Shown here: positions 9,274 through 32,591 of the stretch, piece by piece
Numbering within the stretch: the first letter of the stretch is position 1
How the letters are laid out: each line of letters starts with the position of its first letter
From: Deltaproteobacteria bacterium
GTDB taxonomy: Bacteria > Myxococcota > UBA796 > SXON01
Reading direction: 5' to 3'
DNA: 32,591 bases
Assembly: GCA_947483545.1 (NCBI GenBank)
Contig: CANKNP010000010.1
Coordinates: 1-32,591, forward strand
The notes under the pieces: model-generated
Databases searched by the model: none
Seen by the model: the letters and a program-made list of their open reading frames with translations, nothing else
What the model was told of the DNA's origin: nothing
Translations under genes and position numbers: made by a program

Positions 9274-11589
9274 ATGGCCGCCAGTACCGCCCGCCTCGCC
9301 GCGCTCCTCCTGCTGGCCGGGTGCAAGAGCTGCAAGGACGGCGACGCCGACCCGAGCGATCTCACCGAGGTCTCCCTCGCGGTCACCGGCGTGTACGTGG
9401 GCGAAGGCGTGGGCGTCGGAAGCGCGACCGTGCCCCTGTACGGGACGAACGCGCTGGGTGCGGTGGTGCCGGCCTCGGATCTGGTCAGCGACGGCGGAAC
9501 CGTGGCGCAGGACGTAGCGGGGTGGGGCGTGCTGACGCTGGAGGCCAGCGCGACCGTCAGCGCGACGGCCGGCGGCGATGCGGCGACGGGAGCGGCTTGG
9601 GTGGTCGCGGCCGAGGCGCCGACGTTCGAACTGGCCGGGTTCGCCCTGCACAGCGCTGAAGAGCCGGCGGACCACCTCGCGATCGCGGGCGAGGGCGCTG
9701 TCTGGGTCTCAGGCACGACGGTGTGGTGGGGCAGCCAGACGCAGCCCGCGCTCGTGGTCGCGGAGCTGCCCGACAGCGCAGCAAACCTACAGACTGTGCA
9801 GCTGGAGGGCGACGGTGTCACCGACCTGATGATCTGGACGGCTGGCTCGGTGATCCTGCTCCGGGGCCGAGACGGCGGGGGTCTCACCTTCGCCGCCGGA
9901 TGGACCAGCACCACGGAGGTGGTGGGCTGCGACGTTCAAGACCTCGATGGCGACGGCCTCGTGGACGTCCAGATCGCGACCTCCGACGGGTCTACGAGCA
10001 CCGTCGTGTGGATGATCTCCGACGGCACCTCCTGGGCGATGACCGACTGGATGGTGCTCGACTACGGCGTGATCGCCTTGGCCGGCGAGGACTACACCAG
10101 CGACGGCGAGGTCGAGATCAGCGTGCTCAGCGAGGACGGCATCTTGCAGCGGTACGCCCGCTACGACGAAGGCTGGCAGCTTGGATCCGGCAGCGGCATG
10201 GAGGTGGCCATCGGTCCCGGCGCGCGGATGTACCCCTCGACCGACCTGAACGGCGACGGCATCGACGAGATCCTCGTCGCCGGGCCGCTCGTGGACGGCA
10301 CGGGCTGGCAGGTGAAGGCGATCACCGCCGGGGCGGCGAGCACGTACATCTTCAGCTTCTACAGCGCGGATGTCGGCCTCCCCACGTCGGTCGCCGTAGC
10401 GATGGGGGATCTCTCGGGCGACGGCATCACCGACCTCGGGATGACCAGCGAGCTCGGGCTCCTCCGTCTGGCATGGAACGAGGGCTATGTGAGCAGCGAG
10501 GGCGTTCCAACCCCCGCATTTCAAAGCACCGGCACCGACGACTACCCGAGCGATCGGGGCGTGGGGGTCGGGCAGCTCCTTGGGGACGACGTGCAGGACG
10601 TGCTGCTCGCGGGGGAGACCTACGTGCTGGCCGTCGAAGGCGCGCGGCAAGAGGACGATCCGGAGACCGAGAGCAGCGAGCTCGGCTGGAAGGCGAAGGC
10701 CTCCGCGGTCGCCAGCTACAGCTTGCACATCGAAGGCGAGCCCCTCGTCGGGGACTTCGACGGGGACGGCGGTGCCGACTTCATCTCCTTCGTGCTGGGC
10801 GACGACGGGCTCTCGCTCCAGACGTGGCAGTCCTACCCGGACAATGGGGACATCGAGGCCGGCTGGACCGAGGCCACGAGCCTGCTGATCTCGCCGGACA
10901 GCGCGCCGGTGGCCCTCACGATGTGCGAGGGCGAGCCCTGGGCGCTGTTCATCGAGGGCGGGGTGAGCGTGCTGGCGTCCTACGCGATGTCGGCGGGCGT
11001 GCCGGCGGGCGCGGCCGTCACCACCGAGGCGATCGGGGATCACGTCCTGTGCGGCCCGTTTGCAGACGGGTCTCTGGTCGCCGTCGTGGACCACGCGAGC
11101 AGCACGTTGAGCTGGGTCGCTCCCGACGGCACCGTGACCTCCGAGACCCTGCCGGCGATCACCGTCGGCGCCGCCGACACCGACGGCGACGGTGTGCGCG
11201 AGCTCGTCACCCAGGATTCGGAGGGCGAGATCGCGGCGTGGGACTTTGACGGGGATGGCATCGAAGAGGTCGTTCAACGCACGGCAGGGGAGATCGCCAT
11301 CGCGGAGGCGCGCCCGGCCTTCGGCGGCAGGCTGAGCATCGCAGACGCCGATGGCGACGGCCTCGCCGAGGTGATCCTGCAGGACGACGGGACCGTGTGG
11401 GTCTACCGGGTGGTCAACGGCGCGTTGGTGCCCCCCAGCGTGTTCCATACCACCCGGCTGGTGACCGGCCCGGCCTGGTTCGGAGACATGAGCGGGGACG
11501 GGCTCCCCGACCTGCTGCTCACGGGCCGGGACGACGATCCGAACGATACGGCCGAGTGGGCGGGGACCTGGTTGAACGTGCGGAGGTGA
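9274..11589 (+). CDS. FG-GAP/VCBS-repeat lipoprotein (integrin-like propeller)
   Basis: A 771-residue protein. The signal peptide ends at LLLLAGC (Cys17). The body carries at least eight calcium-binding-type loops of the D-x-[DNS]-G-D-G form, near residues 224 (DLDGDGLVD), 324 (DLNGDGIDE), 379 (DLSGDGITD), 494 (DFDGDGGAD), 636 (DTDGDGVRE), 658 (DFDGDGIEE), 691 (DADGDGLAE) and 739 (DMSGDGLPD). This is the pattern of FG-GAP/VCBS repeats that fold as beta-propellers, as in integrin alpha chains. Such proteins usually act in adhesion or surface scaffolding; the specific partner here is unknown. It is the third gene in a tight plus-strand run of secreted proteins. A 107-base gap with a 13-base direct repeat follows it. 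Confidence 0.9.
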   Translation: MAASTARLAALLLLAGCKSCKDGDADPSDLTEVSLAVTGVYVGEGVGVGSATVPLYGTNALGAVVPASDLVSDGGTVAQDVAGWGVLTLEASATVSATAGGDAATGAAWVVAAEAPTFELAGFALHSAEEPADHLAIAGEGAVWVSGTTVWWGSQTQPALVVAELPDSAANLQTVQLEGDGVTDLMIWTAGSVILLRGRDGGGLTFAAGWTSTTEVVGCDVQDLDGDGLVDVQIATSDGSTSTVVWMISDGTSWAMTDWMVLDYGVIALAGEDYTSDGEVEISVLSEDGILQRYARYDEGWQLGSGSGMEVAIGPGARMYPSTDLNGDGIDEILVAGPLVDGTGWQVKAITAGAASTYIFSFYSADVGLPTSVAVAMGDLSGDGITDLGMTSELGLLRLAWNEGYVSSEGVPTPAFQSTGTDDYPSDRGVGVGQLLGDDVQDVLLAGETYVLAVEGARQEDDPETESSELGWKAKASAVASYSLHIEGEPLVGDFDGDGGADFISFVLGDDGLSLQTWQSYPDNGDIEAGWTEATSLLISPDSAPVALTMCEGEPWALFIEGGVSVLASYAMSAGVPAGAAVTTEAIGDHVLCGPFADGSLVAVVDHASSTLSWVAPDGTVTSETLPAITVGAADTDGDGVRELVTQDSEGEIAAWDFDGDGIEEVVQRTAGEIAIAEARPAFGGRLSIADADGDGLAEVILQDDGTVWVYRVVNGALVPPSVFHTTRLVTGPAWFGDMSGDGLPDLLLTGRDDDPNDTAEWAGTWLNVRR

Positions 11590-11594
11590 CCGCC

Positions 11595-11620
11595 CACTGA
11601 CAACCGTCACTGACAACCGT
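11595..11620. repeat. Two tandem 13-base repeats containing TGAC-N4-GTCA
   Basis: CACTGACAACCGT occurs twice back to back (11595-11607, 11608-11620) and is followed by another CAC. Each unit forms the small palindrome TGAC-aacc-GTCA with the next bases. It lies just after the FG-GAP gene and ~80 bases before the next start, so it could be an operator; this is not established. Confidence 0.8.
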
Positions 11621-15642: not shown

Positions 15643-17364
15643 TCACCCCTGCTCGACCTTCACCCGTACCCGCTTCCCATCGAAGACCACTGCCCAGAGC
15701 CACACCGGGTCTGCCCCAGCGGCCCGCAGCATGACCGCATATTCCCGGTCCTTGATCTGCTTCATCGCGGCAGCCAACGCCGTATCCGAGGTCTCCGGCG
15801 GCTCGCAGGAATCGTCGATGGACTTCAATTCCATCACGACCCCGGCCCGCGATCCACGGTAGTCAACCCGGGGGGAGATGCACACATCGTAGCGCCCAAA
15901 CCCACTCTCCCCATTTGTATCCACGGTATGGGTCATGTTGAGCTGCACGAGCAGCCCAACCAGGAACGATTGGTAGACGGCCTCTGCCGTTCGCTTGCCG
16001 GTGTCAAAGAACGACAGAGATTGGAGAACAAGACGTTGCAGGCCTGCGCCAAATGTTTGGGCGTCGCCCGAGAGCACGGCGCGGCACAATCGATTCACGT
16101 CTTCGGAGCCGCCGATCGCGGAGCGCATCCAATCCCGGAAGATCCCGGTGTAGCTCGCAAGCACTTCCCGGTTGGGGACGGAGAGCGTTGCGACCGTCTC
16201 GCCCCCCAGTTGGGTCACATCCCGGGCCTTCAGATACCCCGAAAACAGCAAAAAGCTCCAGAGAGCGCCGGCGTTGCCGCGCAGATCGCGAAGCTGGATG
16301 TCCTCGGAGACCGGGCGGACGATCTCGCCACCCCGGATCAGCTCGGCTACCTCCGCGTGAACGCCGAGACCACTGCGAATCACCAGATCGCGGATGAGGT
16401 CATCCGAGCCGGTGTTGACCCAGTAGGGTCGGAACACTTTGTCCATGGAGTCGAGGTATCGCAGCACCGACCAGGGGTTGTATACGACCCCGCCGCCCAT
16501 GAGGTAGCCGTTGTACCACTCTCGGATCCCATCCATGTTGGCGGAAGGGCCCGCCAGCGCGCACATCGCCTCGACCTCCGCCGTCGTGAACCCAAATCGG
16601 GTCGCGTATTCGGGCGCGAGGAGCGAGTAGACCGCCAGGTTGTTCAGCCCCGAGAACATCGATTCTTTCGCCACGCGGAGGATCCCCGTGAGCACCCCGC
16701 GGTAGAGCGAGCTGTTGTCCTTGAACGCGCCAGACAGCAGGTTGCGGAACAGCTCGATCACGTCGTCGTAGTACCCATGCTCCCAGCCCTGGTGAATGGG
16801 GGTGTCGTATTCGTCGATCAGCAGCACACACTCTTCGCCCGTTGCGGCGTGAAGGGCCTGGCTCAGCACCCGCAGCGACACCCCCAGGTCGGTGGCGGAC
16901 CCACGCCCCTCGGCCAGAGCCTCCAAGGCCTGGCGCTGGAAGTCACTCAGGTTGGGGTGCGTCCAGGCGTGGCGATGCCGCAGCACCTCCTCTCGGATCA
17001 GGGAGCGGACGTCCTCCTGGCAGGACTCCCACTTTCTGTGCTTCACATCCTTGAACGTGAGGAAAATCACGGGATGGCGCTGAAAGTGCGCCTCCACGTC
17101 TTCCCCTGCGGTCGCGACCTCGAGGCCGGCAAAATACCCCCGAACCTCCTCGGGAGTCCGCGTGCCATCCCCCGAGCACTCAAACCAATACCGGAGCATC
17201 GAGAGGTTCACCGTCTTCCCGAACCGGCGGGGGCGCGGGAGCAGCACCACGGCCGCGGAGCCCCGGACCACGTCTGCGATCATCGCGGTCTTGTCGACGT
17301 AATAGTTGCCGTCACGCCGGATTTTGGCGAAGTCGGAGGTGCCGATGGGAAGCCGGAGGGGCAT
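15643..17364 (-). CDS. AAA-ATPase-like protein with C-terminal PD-(D/E)XK nuclease domain
   Basis: A 573-residue protein of the family pairing an AAA-ATPase-like N-terminal domain with a PD-(D/E)XK domain. The N-terminus has LPIGTSDFAKIR and NYYVDKT, both family hallmarks. The P-loop is the family's atypical RPRRFGKT (44-51) and Walker B is LLIDEYD (181-187). The nuclease core reads GRYDVCI ... GVVMELK, with Asp493, Glu512 and Lys514. The family is common in many copies in bacteria with selfish or defence-like distribution; its function is not established. It lies 39 bases downstream of MoxR on the same strand. All core residues are intact. Confidence 0.9.
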   Translation of the reverse strand: MPLRLPIGTSDFAKIRRDGNYYVDKTAMIADVVRGSAAVVLLPRPRRFGKTVNLSMLRYWFECSGDGTRTPEEVRGYFAGLEVATAGEDVEAHFQRHPVIFLTFKDVKHRKWESCQEDVRSLIREEVLRHRHAWTHPNLSDFQRQALEALAEGRGSATDLGVSLRVLSQALHAATGEECVLLIDEYDTPIHQGWEHGYYDDVIELFRNLLSGAFKDNSSLYRGVLTGILRVAKESMFSGLNNLAVYSLLAPEYATRFGFTTAEVEAMCALAGPSANMDGIREWYNGYLMGGGVVYNPWSVLRYLDSMDKVFRPYWVNTGSDDLIRDLVIRSGLGVHAEVAELIRGGEIVRPVSEDIQLRDLRGNAGALWSFLLFSGYLKARDVTQLGGETVATLSVPNREVLASYTGIFRDWMRSAIGGSEDVNRLCRAVLSGDAQTFGAGLQRLVLQSLSFFDTGKRTAEAVYQSFLVGLLVQLNMTHTVDTNGESGFGRYDVCISPRVDYRGSRAGVVMELKSIDDSCEPPETSDTALAAAMKQIKDREYAVMLRAAGADPVWLWAVVFDGKRVRVKVEQG

Positions 17365-24337: not shown

Positions 24338-24463
24338 GGGGCCTCCAGGGGCGGGGAGCGGAAAGATAATCTGAAACGGGGCGGTTGGCCGGGGGCGTCG
24401 GGGGATCGGGTTGACCCTGTCCCCTTTGCTTTCCCGTCACCAAGGGGGCATGATGGCGCGCCT

Positions 24464-24467
24464 GGAG
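24464..24467 (+). promoter_or_regulatory. Ribosome binding site deciding the ceramidase start
   Basis: GGAG ends six bases before ATG 24474. In-frame ATGs at 24450 and 24453 would add residues ahead of the signal peptide. Confidence 0.75.
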
Positions 24468-24473
24468 ATCGTG

Positions 24474-27077
24474 ATGCGCTACCCGTCGAAGTCCCTGTTG
24501 GCCTGCACCGTGCCGGTGGGCCTCCTCCTGGCGTCATGCGACAAGGACAAAGACGCGCCGGGGGACAGCGTGCCCGCGGTCTGCGATCCGGCGGTCGAGA
24601 ACGCCGGGCAGCCGAGCATCGTCACCGGGGCCCCGATGGCCGGCGTGGCCGAGGCCTGGCTGGAGCTCCCGATTGGAACACCGCTCTCCGGATACACCTC
24701 CCGCTGCGGCTGCTTCGGCGGCGACGGCAAGGTGGACCATCGGGACAGCAATTACGCCTCGGAGTTCAAGCCCTCCGCGGGCGTGCAGTCCCCGATCCCG
24801 CTGAAGGTCTTCTGGCTCTCGAACGGCGACCAGGACATGGTGATCGTGAAGATGGACCTCATCTACTCGTTCGACGGGCTGGTGCAGGACATCGAGCAGC
24901 GACTCTCGGCCTCGACCGGCCGGGATCTGGTCGGCAAGGTCGTGGTGACCACCAACCACTCCCACCACGCATACGGGGACTTCACCGACCAAATCACGTA
25001 CTACCTGGGCAGCGACCGATTCAACAAGGAGGTGTTCGACCGCATGGCCAGCCAGGCGGAGACGGTCGGCCTCGCCGCGTTCGATTCACTCGCTCCCGCC
25101 AAACTCGGCGTTGGCTATGCCAAGGACTGGGATCCAGACGATCAGGTCTACCACGACCGGCGCGGCGACAACGACGACCTGCAGTTCTTCGATGACATCC
25201 CGGCGGGCTCGTACAAGGACCCGTACCTGACCCTGCTGCGCATCGACAACATGGACGACGAGCCGCTCGCCGTGCTGTTCAACTTCGGGATGCACGGCAC
25301 GACGTTGGACGGCGACAACGCCATGGTCTCGGGCGACGCGCCGGGCCAGGTGGAGACGCGGTTTGAGGAACAGTTCGACCACCCCGTGGTCGTCGCCCAT
25401 TTGCAGGGGGGCGGGGGCGATGCCTCTCCGTCCGGGAGCGACGACTTTTACGCGCACTTGGAGACGACCGGTGAGAACGCCAAGGACGCGATCTACGCGC
25501 TCTGGGAGGCCACGCCGACCTCGGCGGATCCGATCCGCTTGGAGACCGTCTCTCGGGCCGTGCCGGAGACGCACGACGACATTCATGTGACCCGCGGCGG
25601 GACGACCGACATGCACTACACCCCGTTCGTCGAGGATTTGGTTCCGGACGACCAGATCTATGACAGCACGGGCGCCATCATCCCCGAGATTGACGAATTC
25701 AACGTCGCGGCCGGCGCCGCCTTTTGCGGCGAGGATCCCGCCTATCTTCCCGGCTATGCGCCCGCGACGGTGTTTCCGTACGTCAATTGCGTCAACGTCG
25801 ACATGATGGTTGGGTTGATCGCAGGGTGGTTTGCGCTGACGGACGAGGAACGCGCGCTCCCGATCACGGAATCGACGCGGGCGCATGTGACCGCCACCCG
25901 GATGGGACCGCTCCCGATTTTGACGGCGGACGGCGAGATTGTCACCGACGACTTTTTCATGGGTTTTCTGCCAGGCGAACCGACCGCTTACTACACCGAA
26001 CAATTCCGCCGACGCGCCGAGACCGAGCTGGGCTTCGAGCACAGCATGGCCGTGGGCTACTCCCAGGATCACGAGGGGTATCTGCTGATCCCCGAGGACT
26101 GGCTGCAGGGCGGCTACGAGATTGACATCAACGTTTGGGGCCCGCTGCAAGGTGAGCACATCATGGAGCAGCTGCTGGTGATGGCGGGCGAGGAGTTGAC
26201 CACCGACACGGTCGAGAAGCACGATCCCTGCGGGCTCTACGCATCGAACAGCTACGGAACGCCGACGGAGCTGCCGGTGCTCGCGCCGGACGAGGCGCCG
26301 GAGGCCGGCACCCGCTACGACACGCCCCCCGTCGAGCTTTTCACGCCGCTCTACACACAGGAGGAGCGGGACGGCGGGATGCTCCCAACGCTGACCGTCG
26401 AGGGCGAATCCATCCCGCGCGTGCAGGGTATCGTGCAGATGGCGTGGATTGGTGGAGATCCGGGGGTCGATTACCCGGTGGTCACGCTGGAGCGCGAGGA
26501 GACCGATGGGAGCTGGTCCGAAGTGCTGACACACGCAGGCCGGCCCATATCGCTTGGGCCCGACATCCTGCTCACGACGACACCCAACCCCCAAGCGCCG
26601 GTGACGATCTACAACGAGCACCATTGGTATGCCGCTTGGCAGGCGGTCGGGCACGCGCTCGACCGCACCGGCGTGGAAGAGGGAACGTACCGCCTGCACG
26701 TCGTTGGCCAGACCTACGTGGGTGGGAGCACGACGTGGCCCTGGGCGACCGGGGACTACGAGGTTTCGAGCCCGACATTTGTCGTCACGCCCGCCGTGAT
26801 CTCGGTGCAGCGGTCCGGCACGAACGACGTCCAGGCCTGGTTTTTAGGACCCGAGCGGGGCTACCGGCTGATCGGGATGGACGGGGGCTATCGCTCGGCC
26901 AATCCCATGCCCGACGACACGGCGATGGTGACGTGTGTCGCGGAAGATGGGACGAGCACGACGACGGCGGTCACCGGCTCGCACACCGGAGGGGTGACGA
27001 CCTTCGTGGGAGCCGATCCGGGCGGCTGCATCGAGTTGATGGTCACGGACAGCTACGGCAACGAAGGCGCGATCTGA
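24474..27077 (+). CDS. Neutral/alkaline ceramidase-like lipoprotein
   Basis: An 867-residue protein. The type II signal MRYPSKSLLACTVPVGLLLASC ends at Cys22. The body resembles neutral ceramidases, which hydrolyse ceramide to sphingosine and fatty acid: TTNHSHHAYGD (159-169) and FNFGMHGTT (269-277) carry the zinc-type His residues, GGGGDASPSG (312-321) carries the candidate nucleophile Ser318, and FLPGEPTAYY matches the PGEFT motif. The C-terminal ~200 residues look like the beta-sandwich domain. The motifs are divergent, so activity on ceramide itself is not certain. It may act on the cell's own sphingolipids or on those of other organisms. The kinase start follows four bases after the stop. 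Confidence 0.82.
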   Translation: MRYPSKSLLACTVPVGLLLASCDKDKDAPGDSVPAVCDPAVENAGQPSIVTGAPMAGVAEAWLELPIGTPLSGYTSRCGCFGGDGKVDHRDSNYASEFKPSAGVQSPIPLKVFWLSNGDQDMVIVKMDLIYSFDGLVQDIEQRLSASTGRDLVGKVVVTTNHSHHAYGDFTDQITYYLGSDRFNKEVFDRMASQAETVGLAAFDSLAPAKLGVGYAKDWDPDDQVYHDRRGDNDDLQFFDDIPAGSYKDPYLTLLRIDNMDDEPLAVLFNFGMHGTTLDGDNAMVSGDAPGQVETRFEEQFDHPVVVAHLQGGGGDASPSGSDDFYAHLETTGENAKDAIYALWEATPTSADPIRLETVSRAVPETHDDIHVTRGGTTDMHYTPFVEDLVPDDQIYDSTGAIIPEIDEFNVAAGAAFCGEDPAYLPGYAPATVFPYVNCVNVDMMVGLIAGWFALTDEERALPITESTRAHVTATRMGPLPILTADGEIVTDDFFMGFLPGEPTAYYTEQFRRRAETELGFEHSMAVGYSQDHEGYLLIPEDWLQGGYEIDINVWGPLQGEHIMEQLLVMAGEELTTDTVEKHDPCGLYASNSYGTPTELPVLAPDEAPEAGTRYDTPPVELFTPLYTQEERDGGMLPTLTVEGESIPRVQGIVQMAWIGGDPGVDYPVVTLEREETDGSWSEVLTHAGRPISLGPDILLTTTPNPQAPVTIYNEHHWYAAWQAVGHALDRTGVEEGTYRLHVVGQTYVGGSTTWPWATGDYEVSSPTFVVTPAVISVQRSGTNDVQAWFLGPERGYRLIGMDGGYRSANPMPDDTAMVTCVAEDGTSTTTAVTGSHTGGVTTFVGADPGGCIELMVTDSYGNEGAI

Positions 27078-27081
27078 GCCC

Positions 27082-27705
27082 GTGAAGCGGTTCATCGCCG
27101 TCGCGGGGAACATGGGCGTGGGGAAGACCTCGCTCGTGGAATTCCTGTCCCAGGAGTATGGCTTCGAGCCGATCTACGAGCCGTTCGCCGACAACCCGTA
27201 CCTGACGGACTTTTACGCGGACATGCCGCGGTGGGCGTTCGGGTCCCAAGTCTGGTTCCTATCGAACAAGTTTCGGCTTCACTTGGAGTTGGACAACCGG
27301 CGGCTGGATCCAGAGCGGGGACGGTTCGTGCAGGATCGGACCATCTACGAAGATGCGGAGATCTTCGCGGCGAACCTGGCACGCACGGGGGCGATCACGC
27401 CCAGAGATTGGAAAAACTACCTGGATTTGTACCACGGCATGCGTCAAGCTCTGCGGCCGCCGGACCTGATGATCTACTTGCGCTGTTCGGTCAAGGCGAT
27501 TCGAAGGCGCATTCAACGCCGCGGCCGGGCGAGCGAGCAGGCGATCCCAACGCCGTATCTGAAGGGGCTCAACGTGCTCTACGAGGATTGGATGGGGAGG
27601 TACGATCAATCCCCCAAGTTCGTGTGGGACAGCGAGCGGGCGGATTACCTGACGGATCTGGTGGAGCGAATTGAGTTTCGGCGAGCGTTGGAGCGGGTGC
27701 TGTAG
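27082..27705 (+). CDS. Deoxynucleoside kinase
   Basis: A 207-residue kinase of the dCK/dGK/dNK family, phosphorylating deoxynucleosides to monophosphates for salvage. P-loop GNMGVGKT (9-16), EPF (33-35, catalytic Glu33), QDRTIYED (84-91, the DRS-type motif) and the Arg-rich lid CSVKAIRRRIQRRGR (135-149). The length is normal for bacterial members, and base specificity cannot be told from sequence by eye. GTG 27082 starts four bases after the ceramidase stop, so the two are probably co-transcribed, with no obvious metabolic link. Confidence 0.93.
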   Translation: MKRFIAVAGNMGVGKTSLVEFLSQEYGFEPIYEPFADNPYLTDFYADMPRWAFGSQVWFLSNKFRLHLELDNRRLDPERGRFVQDRTIYEDAEIFAANLARTGAITPRDWKNYLDLYHGMRQALRPPDLMIYLRCSVKAIRRRIQRRGRASEQAIPTPYLKGLNVLYEDWMGRYDQSPKFVWDSERADYLTDLVERIEFRRALERVL

Positions 27706-27714
27706 ACAGGGTTG

Positions 27715-28118
27715 CTACGGCAGCCAAACCCCGCTCGCACGCTCCACCCCGTCTGCGCGCAGCCCCCCGAGCGCCGCCAAGCACGCGCGAACCTCGGTCG
27801 CTGTGTCCAGCAGCGCGTCCACGCTCCGGACCCTGCCCGCGTCCAGCGGTTGACTCTGGGGTTGCGGCGTCCCATGTCCCTGCGCCGCATGGGAGCGCTG
27901 CGGTCAACGTTCCGTCGACGGTGTAGGCGCCGCCAGGTCCAAAGAGCTCAAACGACCCCGCCCACCCACGCGAGCAGGGGGGTGTCGAAGGTCGAGCGCA
28001 GCAGGGCCGGGTCCACCTCCGGGTCGGTGAACCGCTCGAGGGCGGGCCGGGTGCTGGCCCAGGCGAAGCTGAGCGCGCCGTACGCCGCGATCAGCGCGCC
28101 AGCGCACCGACACCACAC
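27715..28118 (-). pseudogene. Degraded, internally deleted paralogue of the adjacent WD40-like gene
   Basis: Three minus-strand frames together spell both ends of the neighbouring 1432-residue protein. Frame A, from GTG 28118 to TGA 27950-27948: an N-terminal hydrophobic segment then RPALERFTDPEVDP and TFDTPLLAW, matching RPQFERSTEPEVVP and DFTIPFFSW. Frame B, from ~27949: ELFGPGGAYTVDG and PCGAGTWDAATPEST, matching GFLGPGGLYDDDG and NCGKRVIDGASPTTV. Frame C, to TAG 27717-27715: LDAGRVRSVDALLD, VRACLAAL and DGVERASGVW, matching VDAGKVQGLSLLD, VAACVSGA and EGVERASGVW. So about 1290 residues of the middle are missing, with frame changes near 27950 and ~27850. GTG 28118 follows the neighbour's stop after one base. 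Sequencing errors could explain the frameshifts but not the deletion. Confidence 0.8.
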
Positions 28119-28119
28119 G

Positions 28120-31100
28120 TCAAAAATTCGTCACCCACACCCCGCTCGCCCGTTCGACCCCTTCGACGCGGGTCCCCACGGTCGCTCCGCTCACGCACGC
28201 CGCGACGGTCGCCGGCACCGTGCTGCCATCGAGCAGCGAGAGGCCCTGGACCTTGCCGGCGTCTACGACCCAGGCCAGCACCGCCTCACCGTGGACCCGC
28301 TTGTCGATGCAGCCCTTCGGGAGCCTGGCGAGGCTCCCCGTCAACACCGTCTCCACGGCGCTGAGCGTCGGGGACACGTCCTGGTCGGACAGCCGCAGCG
28401 CCCGAACGGCGCCGCCCGCGACGACCCACTCGCGCTTCATCTCGGCGGCGTCCACCTCCAAATCAAAGCGGAGGCCCTGGATCACGTCCACGAGGCACCC
28501 GACCAGCCCGTCGTTCTGCGTCGTGTCGGAGGTGACGGCGATCCGGCGCACCGTGCCCGCGGAGATCACCCACTTGAGCCCGATCGCGCTGCCTGCCAGG
28601 GTCGTGGGCGCCCCCGCGAGGCACTCCTGCACGGCGGGCGTCTGTTCTTCGATCGCGAGCTTCACGAAGGCGTCCACCACCTCCCGCGTGTTCGGCTCCA
28701 TCTGCCCGCCGTACCCGTACAGGAGCAGCGAGGTCCCGTCCCGTAGCGATTCGCCGGCGAGCTGGACACCGTCGATGCGGTCGGAGATCCAGCTCCCGTC
28801 GCTCAGGAGGGTGAGGCGCGCGTAGGGCAATTCACTGGCTTCGTCCCAGAGCACGATGCGTCCGAGATCGTCGGTGGAGGCGAGACGGCCCGGCTTGAGC
28901 TTCACCCAATGCACGGGGTTTCCCATGAAGCTCGGCGCTTTCTGGAGCTCGGTCGGCTCCCCGCCAGAGGGCTCGTCTGCGTCCAGGGGCAACCGCCAAT
29001 CCAAGCCGCCAAGCAGGAGCGACAGCCTCCCGAGACCGGGCATCCAACGGAGGGTGAGGACCCCCGCGACGGGCCGCACCGTCCAGTGCACGACGGGCTT
29101 GCCGCTCTGCAAGTCCCAGACCCGCAGCGTCCCGGCATCGCTCATCGACGCGAGCTTGGTGCCGCCGTCCTCTTCGCCGAGCGCCAGGGCCACGGTGGTC
29201 TCCCCGAACGTCAGGAACCAGCGACTGTCCACCTTGGTGGCGGCGTCGTACATCCGCACAGTGCCGTCGGCGCTGCCGACGATGACGGTCTTGCCGTCCT
29301 TGGTCGGGGCGATGGCGTGGATCGGCCCGACGGGCCCCATGAACGCCGTGCGCTGGACCGCCTTCTCGATGTCCCACGCCCGGATGAGGGTGTCCTCTTG
29401 CCCCGAGTAGAGCGTGCGGCCGTCTGGCGAGGCGGCGAGGGCGTGGATCCACGGCACGGCCGCGATCGGGCCCGGCGCACGGGCCACGAGGGAGGAGCCC
29501 CCGCCTGCGACCCACAGCCAACTTCGGAGGGTTCCCGAGGCGTCCCGGGAGACGAGCGCTTGCTCGCGAGCGAAGTGGCCGAGCGACTGCCCTCCAAACC
29601 ACAGGCGCTCGATGAGCGGGTCCGTGGGCGTCGCGGAGGGGGGCGTGCCCGGATCGAGCACCCGAACCTCGCGAAACGGCAGGGTGATCACGACGACGCG
29701 GTTGTGGTCGTCGGCGAAAGCGAGCGCCTTACCGTCCGGCGTCATCGCGGCGGCGACAGGGCGGCCGCCGGGGAGCGCGCTCGCTTCCGCGGGGCCACCG
29801 AGCGGTCCGACGCGCAGTTGTCCGGCCTCCACCCAGGCAAAGCGATCCTTATGGGCCGCGAGGGGCTGGGTCTCCGGTGCCCAGACCCGGCGGGAGACGG
29901 ACCCGGCTCGCATGTCGAGGTAGCCAAGCACCTGTCCTCCGGCGCCCTTGAGCGTGGCGAAGCGGCCGGAGCGGCCGTCGAGGTCCCGAACGCCGATCGG
30001 GAGCTCGACGCTCTCCACCACCGCGCCGACGGCCAGCTCGATCTGGTCCACGTGCCGGGCATCGCGCCGGACCCAAACGGCGCCTGGTCCGTTCTCGTCG
30101 AACGTCAACTGTCCGTGTTGAACGAACTCTTTCGCACGGTCTGCCGCGGTGCCCTGCAACGGCCGAGCGGCGACAGAGTCCTCCTCGCGCACCACAGGAG
30201 CGAACGCGAACCAGGGGTGCTCGGCGTCCTGGTCGCTGACGCCGGCAAGCGCTGTCGTCCGGTCCACCGACCACACGTCAAAGCGCCCATCGGCTTGCAG
30301 CACGGCAACCTTCGTAGCGTCCTCGTCGAACGCACACGCGAGGATCTGGCCGCCCGTCTGCGGCAGCGTCTCGCCCTGCCGACCCTGGTGACCATTCCAC
30401 AGCACGAGCACGTCGGCATCCAGCGTGGCCACCCCCCGACGGTTCTGGCTCTCGCACAACGGCCGCCCCCGCGGGCGCTCCTGTTGACGGCTCTCGCTGA
30501 TCGCGGTCTTCCGCTCCCGCCCGGTGGGGTCAATCCAGCGCACCGTGCGGGCGGGCCCGAGGACCGCGTCCCGGGCGACGTAGGGCAGCGTCAGGAGGCG
30601 CCCTCCCCGGCGCAGATCGAGGACCACGACCTCGAGGTCTGTCCGGACCAGGGCGAGGTCCTCTGCGAGGCTCACCGTGGCGGTGCGCCCGTCCACGACC
30701 CAGGTGAACGCCTGGGACCCGCCGATGGCGTCCGACTGGATCGTGCCGCGGCTGGCGGGATCCCGGAGCAGCAGGCTGACGCCCAGCGTGGGGATCGGAT
30801 CCGTCGTGCCGGCGTCGCGAAAGCGAGGGCCGACGGTGACGGCGTGCTTGCCGTCGGCGGAGCTGGCGAGGGCCACCACGGGGCCGGCGTGGACCGCGTA
30901 CACGCGGGGCTCCTCGCCGGGCGCGGTGAACGTGACGTCCCCGGATCGGGAGCCCCAGACCACGCCCGGGCTCGCGCCGGTCGCGATCGCCGAGACGCCC
31001 GCCATGTCCTTCTGCACCGCCAGGGCCGTGCCGGCCCGTGCTGCTCCTCGCACGCTCCCGTCCTCTGCGATCACCAGCAGCCGATCCCCGGCCACGCTCG

Positions 31101-32418
31101 CGGAGAAGGCGGGCTTTGACAGGGCGTGGCGGGCCCGAACCGAGCCGTCGGGGTTGTGGATCTTCAAATCCAGCCGCGTCGCCACGTCCACCCAGACGGA
31201 GTTGCCCTCGGCGTCGGTGGCCAGCCGCTCCCGCAGCGGGGGCGCAGGCCACCGGCCGGCGGGGCTGAGCGTGTCCCCAAGGTCGTCAGAGACGGTGCTG
31301 TAGCTCACGGGGGAGGTGACCCCGCGCACGCGCCGATGATGCGGGATCTCGCGGAGCGGCGGACCCGAGGGCATGTTGAAGCGGCTCGGTCGTTGCCAGA
31401 CCCGGGTGAACCCTGCCCCATCGGATCCGACGAGGGTGATTCCCCAGGGCGCGACGCGGAGCCTCGGGCGGGTCAACGCGCCATGCGGTGCGGGCACCGA
31501 CTCCCGGAACGCGGGCAGGTCGTCCACCAGGTCCCACACCTCAAACTCGATGCGCGCGCCGCTCGCCTCGGAGATGCGCGAGACCGCGGTGATCTGCTCC
31601 TCGTCGCGCGACCAGGCGACGTCCACGACGTCCCCTTCCCCCAGGTCCAGCGTACGCTCGATCCGTCCGGTCGCGAGCGTCCACACGCTCACCCTGCCGC
31701 CCCCCTGCCCGGTCAACAGGCGCTTTCCCTCTCGATCCAGCGCCACCGCGTAGACCGGGTCCTCCGCGGCTCCGCGTCGTGCCGTGGACACCGCCCGAAC
31801 GAGCCGACCGCTCGTGCCGTGGAGCACCGCCGCCCCCCGCTCCCCTCCGACGGCGTAGACCGCCCCCGCTGCGCTCGCCGCCGAAGCATGCAGCGCTCCA
31901 AGGTCTGGATCCCGCGTCCAAAGCGACTTTCCCGACCGCGCGTTGACCGCGAACGCAGCACCCCCGCGCGTGCCGACGATCATCGGGATCGTGGAGATCG
32001 CCCCGCCGGCATCCTTCACATCCGCCAGGCCGAACGCGAGGGACGTCGCCTTGGCCCGCACCTCCGTCACCGCGGCGGCGTTCGTGCCCTCGAACACGCA
32101 GATCCGGCCATCCTCCCCGAGCAAGGCGTACAGTTCGCCCTCGTCCACCGTCGTGGGGCTGGCCCCGTCGATGACGCGCTTTCCACAGTTGCGGCCCATC
32201 TTCGGGGCGCCGTCGTCGTCGTAGAGGCCCCCGGGCCCGAGGAAGCCGACCTCGTCGTTCGGCGCCCACGAGAAGAACGGGATGGTGAAGTCCCGAATCG
32301 GCGTAGATGGCACCACCTCGGGCTCCGTGGACCGCTCGAACTGTGGGCGTACATCCGCGGTCGCGAGGCCGATGACCGCGAGGCCGGCGAGGCCGAGGGC
32401 GGCGAACTTTCGCGGCAC
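28120..32418 (-). CDS. Giant WD40-like beta-propeller protein with two C-terminal Cys-pair domains
   Basis: A 1432-residue protein with an N-terminal hydrophobic segment (FAALGLAGLAVIGLATA), so secreted or anchored. WD40/PQQ-like blades run from ~90 to ~1200, recognisable in VSVWTLATG, FDVWSVDRT, IRAWDIEKA, VRMYDAATK, LRVWDLQSG and IVLWDEA; more than one propeller is expected. The last ~190 residues hold two tandem modules like the AgmX/PglI C-terminal domain: one at ~1246-1330 (Cys1266, Cys1308; LKWVISAGTVRRI) and one at ~1355-1432 (Cys1370, Cys1408; LAWVVDAGKVQGL). No enzyme motif was seen. GTG 32418 overlaps the peroxiredoxin stop by one base (TAGTG), indicating translational coupling. Function unknown; an envelope scaffold is plausible. 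Confidence 0.88.
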   Translation of the reverse strand: MPRKFAALGLAGLAVIGLATADVRPQFERSTEPEVVPSTPIRDFTIPFFSWAPNDEVGFLGPGGLYDDDGAPKMGRNCGKRVIDGASPTTVDEGELYALLGEDGRICVFEGTNAAAVTEVRAKATSLAFGLADVKDAGGAISTIPMIVGTRGGAAFAVNARSGKSLWTRDPDLGALHASAASAAGAVYAVGGERGAAVLHGTSGRLVRAVSTARRGAAEDPVYAVALDREGKRLLTGQGGGRVSVWTLATGRIERTLDLGEGDVVDVAWSRDEEQITAVSRISEASGARIEFEVWDLVDDLPAFRESVPAPHGALTRPRLRVAPWGITLVGSDGAGFTRVWQRPSRFNMPSGPPLREIPHHRRVRGVTSPVSYSTVSDDLGDTLSPAGRWPAPPLRERLATDAEGNSVWVDVATRLDLKIHNPDGSVRARHALSKPAFSASVAGDRLLVIAEDGSVRGAARAGTALAVQKDMAGVSAIATGASPGVVWGSRSGDVTFTAPGEEPRVYAVHAGPVVALASSADGKHAVTVGPRFRDAGTTDPIPTLGVSLLLRDPASRGTIQSDAIGGSQAFTWVVDGRTATVSLAEDLALVRTDLEVVVLDLRRGGRLLTLPYVARDAVLGPARTVRWIDPTGRERKTAISESRQQERPRGRPLCESQNRRGVATLDADVLVLWNGHQGRQGETLPQTGGQILACAFDEDATKVAVLQADGRFDVWSVDRTTALAGVSDQDAEHPWFAFAPVVREEDSVAARPLQGTAADRAKEFVQHGQLTFDENGPGAVWVRRDARHVDQIELAVGAVVESVELPIGVRDLDGRSGRFATLKGAGGQVLGYLDMRAGSVSRRVWAPETQPLAAHKDRFAWVEAGQLRVGPLGGPAEASALPGGRPVAAAMTPDGKALAFADDHNRVVVITLPFREVRVLDPGTPPSATPTDPLIERLWFGGQSLGHFAREQALVSRDASGTLRSWLWVAGGGSSLVARAPGPIAAVPWIHALAASPDGRTLYSGQEDTLIRAWDIEKAVQRTAFMGPVGPIHAIAPTKDGKTVIVGSADGTVRMYDAATKVDSRWFLTFGETTVALALGEEDGGTKLASMSDAGTLRVWDLQSGKPVVHWTVRPVAGVLTLRWMPGLGRLSLLLGGLDWRLPLDADEPSGGEPTELQKAPSFMGNPVHWVKLKPGRLASTDDLGRIVLWDEASELPYARLTLLSDGSWISDRIDGVQLAGESLRDGTSLLLYGYGGQMEPNTREVVDAFVKLAIEEQTPAVQECLAGAPTTLAGSAIGLKWVISAGTVRRIAVTSDTTQNDGLVGCLVDVIQGLRFDLEVDAAEMKREWVVAGGAVRALRLSDQDVSPTLSAVETVLTGSLARLPKGCIDKRVHGEAVLAWVVDAGKVQGLSLLDGSTVPATVAACVSGATVGTRVEGVERASGVWVTNF

Positions 32419-32591
32419 TAGAGCGCCCGGATCGCCGCGGAGACCTCTCCCGCGTGGCCGCCGACGCTCACGGGGTCCCAGACGTTCCGGACCACTCCGG
32501 CGCCATCCACCAGGAACGTGACCCGGCGCGACACGCGACCGTCTTCGACGCCCCAGCGTTTGGCCAACGCGCCATCCTCGTCCACCAGCAA
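32418..32591 (-). CDS. Peroxiredoxin (AhpC/TSA, BCP-like), C-terminal 57 residues
   Basis: The frame is open from the right edge to TAG 32420-32418. The visible 57 residues include LLVDEDGALAKRWGVEDG and RRVTFLVDGAGVVRNVW, then a closing HAGEVSAAIRAL. This is the standard end of thiol peroxidases of the Bcp/AhpC-TSA group (late strands and the R-x-T-F-L-V-D motif). The peroxidatic Cys lies beyond the window. It is first in a minus-strand run with the WD40-like gene, overlapping it by one base. Confidence 0.85.
   Translation of the reverse strand: MLVDEDGALAKRWGVEDGRVSRRVTFLVDGAGVVRNVWDPVSVGGHAGEVSAAIRAL

Follow-up and report, generated by a model that had tools for sequence, protein, structure and literature searches.

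The stretch of DNA analysed here (the window, 32,591 nt), from an environmental and probably myxobacteria-related bacterium, carries on its reverse strand an intact gene for a WD40-type propeller protein and, directly behind it, a relic that preserves both ends of a further gene of the same family (Table 1). The intact neighbour matched the WD40 family (PF00400) at 59.2 bits, above the curated cut-off of 27, and its residues 1252-1320 matched the AgmX/PglI C-terminal domain (NF033768, myxo_SS_tail) at 25.2 bits, under the curated cut-off of 40. It is thus like the WD40-repeat propeller proteins and weakly like the AgmX/PglI proteins at its tail, whereas the relic lacks any propeller and retains only the family-specific ends; a search of two relic ORFs against NCBIfam, including the 35-residue C-terminal ORF (27715-27822), returned 0 families. 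The AhpC/TSA-like piece on the other side of the intact gene (57 residues) matched its Pfam family at 20.1 bits, under the curated 26.

Table 1. Features of the propeller locus, in window coordinates.
Feature	Position	Strand	Evidence or remark
Ceramidase-like gene, then deoxynucleoside kinase	24411-27705	+	
Deoxynucleoside kinase (dNK), convergent	27082..27705	+	PF01712, E 6.1e-46
Relic, whole	27715..28118	-	GTG at 28118 to stop TAG 27717-27715
C-terminal piece (DAGRVRSV...GVERASGVWLP), frame 2, then stop	27718..27843	-	Profile hC, 38.1 bits, E 3.1e-11
Junction of ~3.9-kb deletion, out of frame	27844..27847	-	Match to residue ~92 stops at 27848; match from residue ~1385 starts at 27843
Second N-terminal (middle) piece (GPGGAYTVDG...CG...DAATPEST), frame 1	27848..27946	-	Profile hM, 23.3 bits, E 1.6e-6
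Small-frameshift stretch	27947..27965	-	Frame 0 match up to 27966, frame 1 match from 27946
N-terminal piece (RPALERFTDPEV...TPLLAW), frame 0	27966..28100	-	Profile hN, 32.6 bits, E 1.7e-9
Intact 1432-residue WD40-type propeller protein, weak AgmX/PglI-like tail	28120..32418	-	WD40 and NF033768 matches
AhpC/TSA-like gene, 3′ end	32416..32591	-	Stop overlaps propeller start; order kept in 4 of 4 relatives

The relic is about a tenth as long as a full gene, yet both termini are kept. Its GTG lies 1 bp past the stop of the intact propeller gene, and its stop is separated by 9 bp from that of the kinase, the place at which the propeller gene of two relatives (L002 and L004) ends. Three pieces on the same strand, free of internal stop codons, follow one another in the family order and in three different frames, with ~1290 codons between them absent; the reading frame is thereby destroyed. 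Frame 0 of the N-terminal piece, which includes what reads as a putative signal-peptide-like stretch, is open from the GTG to a TGA at 27950-27948. The first-pass annotation had described counterparts of the first ~95 and last ~50 residues of the neighbour in three frames. Three profiles bear out the counterparts, but the N-terminal match is broken between 27966 and 27946, and the matched extents become residues ~8-51 and ~59-92 together with the last ~45. The closing motif GVERASGVW, which the annotation had called the same in both, is identical in relic and neighbour.

The same annotation had named frameshift decay and an internal deletion, and both kinds of event stand. Their number can be reduced, because the change from frame 1 to frame 2 falls within the same 4 bp as the lost middle, so that one out-of-frame deletion accounts for both. 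Since the deletion covers the second frame change, an extra small indel is needed only between 27966 and 27946, leaving one frameshift and one deletion junction. Programmed frameshifting was discarded as a way of reading the locus: two shifts would be needed and the middle would still be missing.

To score the relic independently of its neighbour, end profiles (HMMs) were constructed from nine of the ten family proteins (P0002-P0010), with the window's own protein (P0001) excluded. The family comprises at least these ten proteins (P0001 to P0010), identified from ~5.8 billion proteins by scoring the 7992 candidates with the most shared words; a further 42 (P0011-P0052) were set aside as general WD40 proteins, none of which covered more than 22% of the query. 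When the window was searched in six frames (652 segments) at a threshold of E 1e-3, each profile found the intact gene and the relic and nothing else, with the next best segments at E 0.34 (N-terminal), 0.44 (middle) and 0.027 (C-terminal). None of 1000 dinucleotide-preserving shuffles of the relic matched any of the three profile scores. Homology to an intact gene is thus significant in all three profiles, and alignment no better than for shuffled sequence, an outcome that would have spoken against a remnant, was not seen. Direct alignment to the neighbour agreed for the N-terminal piece (score 74) and the C-terminal piece (score 88), neither of which was reached by any of 500 shuffles, while the middle piece, aligned as an 84-residue segment, scored 59, a value reached by 7 of 500.

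The tail profile also matched other proteins of the relatives, more weakly (at most 26.3 bits, compared with 38.1 for the relic), and the C-terminal piece alone is therefore less specific than the N-terminal piece. The profile of the last 60 residues matched a stretch within the C-terminal region of the neighbour as well (28462-28581, reverse strand; 13.2 bits), a region in which the tail motif appears to be repeated. A comparison of viral contigs with the family alignment gave 20 stretches that fit the pattern, none of them a relative. We conclude that the two-ended relic is real: a gene remnant with both ends, a ~3.9-kb internal deletion, a frameshift and a head-to-tail tandem position, as had been proposed.

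The full-length gene was found on contigs of four relatives, one Myxococcales bacterium (Lake Baikal) and three entries named 'uncultured proteobacterium'. Each of these four draft genomes holds one full-length copy, further matches being partial (tail or WD40 stretches), and a relative with two full-length copies was not found among them. Within the order, 4 of 63 searched genomes had a full-length family member, once each, and 2 more had a distant partial match; a search of the class at E 1e-60 returned the family in 4 of 71 genomes, the same four. An AhpC/TSA-like counterpart stands directly before the propeller gene in all four relatives (67-74% identity; an abutting or overlapping pair), and the intact copy therefore occupies the shared upstream position.

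The order propeller, kinase, ceramidase is common to the window, L002 and L004. The distance from propeller stop to kinase stop is 0 bp in L002 and 6 bp in L004, as against 414 bp in the window, where the relic fills it. In the other two relatives (G001, G003) the kinase-ceramidase pair lies away from the propeller gene, ~100 kb off within one contig or on a separate one. The annotation had suggested looking in related genomes for a second full-length copy at this site, and none was found: the site is empty in two of the four relatives, and the propeller gene is apart from the kinase in the other two. Nor was an unrelated intact small gene seen at the site in the relatives, the other outcome that would have told against a remnant. 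No piece of a propeller gene was seen past the kinase of the two relatives with the propeller gene elsewhere (L034, L035; 1.5 kb each), or in the more distant genomes L049, L051, L052 and L053 (0.2-0.9 kb each). A fusion of two copies in the empty-site relatives was considered and rejected, as the C-terminal end of the relic is no closer to theirs (0.42-0.43) than to the window's own gene (0.56). Ceramidase-like relatives were found in 52 of the 60 genomes of the order searched for them, and in nine genomes examined (G001-G004, G035, G036, G041, G043 and G046) the kinase follows the ceramidase-like gene, an unexpected pairing.

The tight packing of the relic, 1 bp after the previous stop and 9 bp from the kinase stop, is operon-like and would suit a short functional gene of ~135 residues, consisting of the N-terminal end and C-terminal tail without a propeller and broken by sequence or assembly errors. 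The codon composition retained in the N- and C-terminal pieces points the same way, as does the fact that a single sequence from a single contig is all that represents the neighbour. However, no short relative with the pieces joined was found among ~5.8 billion proteins (390 candidates, none at E ≤ 10), a search with the 56-residue frame gave 1 candidate and no relative, and short homologues elsewhere were thus not seen; both searches require shared 5-residue words, so that distant relatives could be missed. In each of the four relatives the joined pieces matched best at the two ends of its full-length gene. Weaker matches at three other places (L031-L033, E 0.025-0.81, one with a stop) had no match to an end profile at E ≤ 0.1 and were rejected. 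A short gene would also need two errors within 400 bp, next to long open genes, and we consider it quite improbable. That the locus is known from one contig only would suit a chimeric metagenome assembly, in which propeller pieces of another strain were joined here. Relic and neighbour share no repeat better than one of 57 bp at 74%, which leaves little for an assembler to join on, and the spacing between relic and kinase suits a natural gene end, making such a chimera extremely improbable. A scan of 27600-28300 for promoters and terminators gave 0 of each, and the one Rfam match in this interval, to a miRNA (20.2 bits, where the gathering score is 78), was taken as chance.

The first-pass annotation had read the relic as the decayed product of a duplication of the present neighbour, and for a recent copy this was not supported. 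Over the relic's columns, its identity was 40% to the neighbour and lay within 36-47% for each of 11 rows, which comprised the neighbour, nine other proteins of the family and the protein from L002. At codon pairs for the same residue, 22 of 48 were identical between relic and neighbour, with 22.2 expected at saturation from codon usage; the neighbour and the L002 gene were saturated likewise (33 of 70 identical, 33.4 expected). Neither residue identity nor synonymous sites marked the neighbour as the closest relative, and the relic looks like an old copy. Identity at codon positions 1, 2 and 3 was 0.62, 0.62 and 0.48, compared with 0.33, 0.26 and 0.40 by chance, and the contrast of positions 1-2 over position 3 was 0.33 (bootstrap 0.17-0.50). 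About 43% of bases had changed, with one frameshifting indel and all other gaps in frame.

Composition differed along the relic. GC3 was 0.96 in the N-terminal piece and 0.88 in the C-terminal piece, compared with 0.88 in the gene, whereas the middle piece had a flat codon-position composition and a GC3 of 0.68 (P 0.002 under the gene's 0.883). Coding composition was thus retained in the two outer pieces but not in the middle piece, which either decayed for longer or was never typical. When copies were simulated neutrally to the same identity, the observed contrast was reached by 0 of 300 without realignment and by 8 of 300 with realignment, so that the codon-position contrast alone is moderate evidence. 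Not one of the 300 neutral copies attained all three alignment scores at once (singly they were attained by 13, 3 and 0), the simulated piece lengths being approximate. Together, the contrast, the joint scores and the single frameshifting indel favour divergence as a functional protein first and disruption afterwards; the flat composition of the middle piece agrees less well with this order of events.

One rival, the annotated reading in its plainest form, is that the neighbour was recently duplicated in tandem and that the copy decayed quickly under neutral change. The tandem position, the 8 of 300 realigned copies and the flat middle piece would all suit it, and so would the tree, in which the relic has a long branch (1.1-1.3, compared with 0.38 for the neighbour) and its grouping with the neighbour is 0.66 log units worse and is not rejected (p-AU 0.414). 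Against this, synonymous sites are at chance distance from the neighbour, no neutral copy attained all three scores, and one frameshifting indel accompanies ~43% base change. In addition, the bacterial deletion bias stated in a pseudogene review (PMC3899985) would presumably have removed a neutral stretch long before, and we therefore regard this explanation as unlikely.

The best tree placed the relic beside P0008-P0010 with support of 55/32, and P0008 and P0010 are the only two of the ten family proteins with the ending GVWLP. Taken with the similar distance to all rows and the empty site in the two relatives with the same gene order, this would be compatible with a xenologue, that is, a foreign family member that was acquired horizontally, landed behind the resident gene and was then deleted. 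However, support of 55/32 is negligible, the relic fits exactly head-to-tail between the stops of the intact gene and the kinase, and the flanking propeller, kinase and ceramidase-like genes are none of them of a mobile kind. Such an acquisition is rather unlikely. Other trees placed the window's genes no more firmly: in a tree of the full-length family with two distant partial relatives as its root, constrained groups for the window's gene were not rejected (p-AU 0.144 and 0.229), and a ceramidase plus kinase tree, from which G033, with its partial ceramidase, was omitted along with 50 others of the 60 searched genomes, likewise did not fix the place of the window's gene. The position of the relic is best fitted by tandem duplication in situ as its probable origin.

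On balance, we think it probable that the relic is a real remnant of a second, once full-length paralogue of the propeller family, lying head-to-tail with the intact gene and now without function. A tandem paralogue would have arisen long ago, and selection would still have acted on the protein of the second copy as it diverged. One out-of-frame deletion of ~3.9 kb, with limits inside the borders of the flanking genes, would then have gutted it, and one small frameshift would have occurred either before or after. It is likely that nothing in the relic still works. The 56-codon N-terminal frame might, judging from its placement in the sequence, still be translated by coupling; no sign of its use was seen, and the search with this frame had found no relative.

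Gene loss by deletion is an ordinary kind of event in bacterial genomes. Like bacterial pseudogenes as described in PMC3899985 and, for Rickettsia, in PMC2374718, the relic has a disrupted frame and is homologous to an intact gene. In Rickettsia, fragments of a single broken gene are entered as individual short ORFs, and recent acquisitions are the source of most variable genes and pseudogenes (PMC2374718). What differs here is that the relic consists of both termini of a very long gene and lies next to an intact family member. Rickettsia is also intracellular, whereas the relatives point to a lake-dwelling lineage, to which the window would by extension belong. The relic is a clean case of a remnant that ORF listing splits into short spurious frames.

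The relic suggests that a family with a single member in each relative examined was for long represented by two copies in the window's lineage, which bears on how the gene tree is read. An extension of this idea, decidedly unlikely in our estimation, is that the family was once an old tandem pair, A and B, of which other genera kept one; the single-copy 'orthologues' would then be a mixture of A and B (hidden paralogy), and the relic would be a trace of the pair. A bolder variant of this unlikely idea is that the two-ended short form was for long a working mini-protein, made of the N-terminal end and the tail without the propeller.

Two observations concern other parts of the window. A 573-residue protein encoded on the reverse strand (15643-17364) combines AAA-ATPase_like and PDDEXK_9 matches, as an ATPase-nuclease. 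On the forward strand, a long ORF (9274-11589) matches FG-GAP repeats and overlaps a long reverse-strand ORF (9787-11616) that is without a Pfam match and is probably a shadow ORF.
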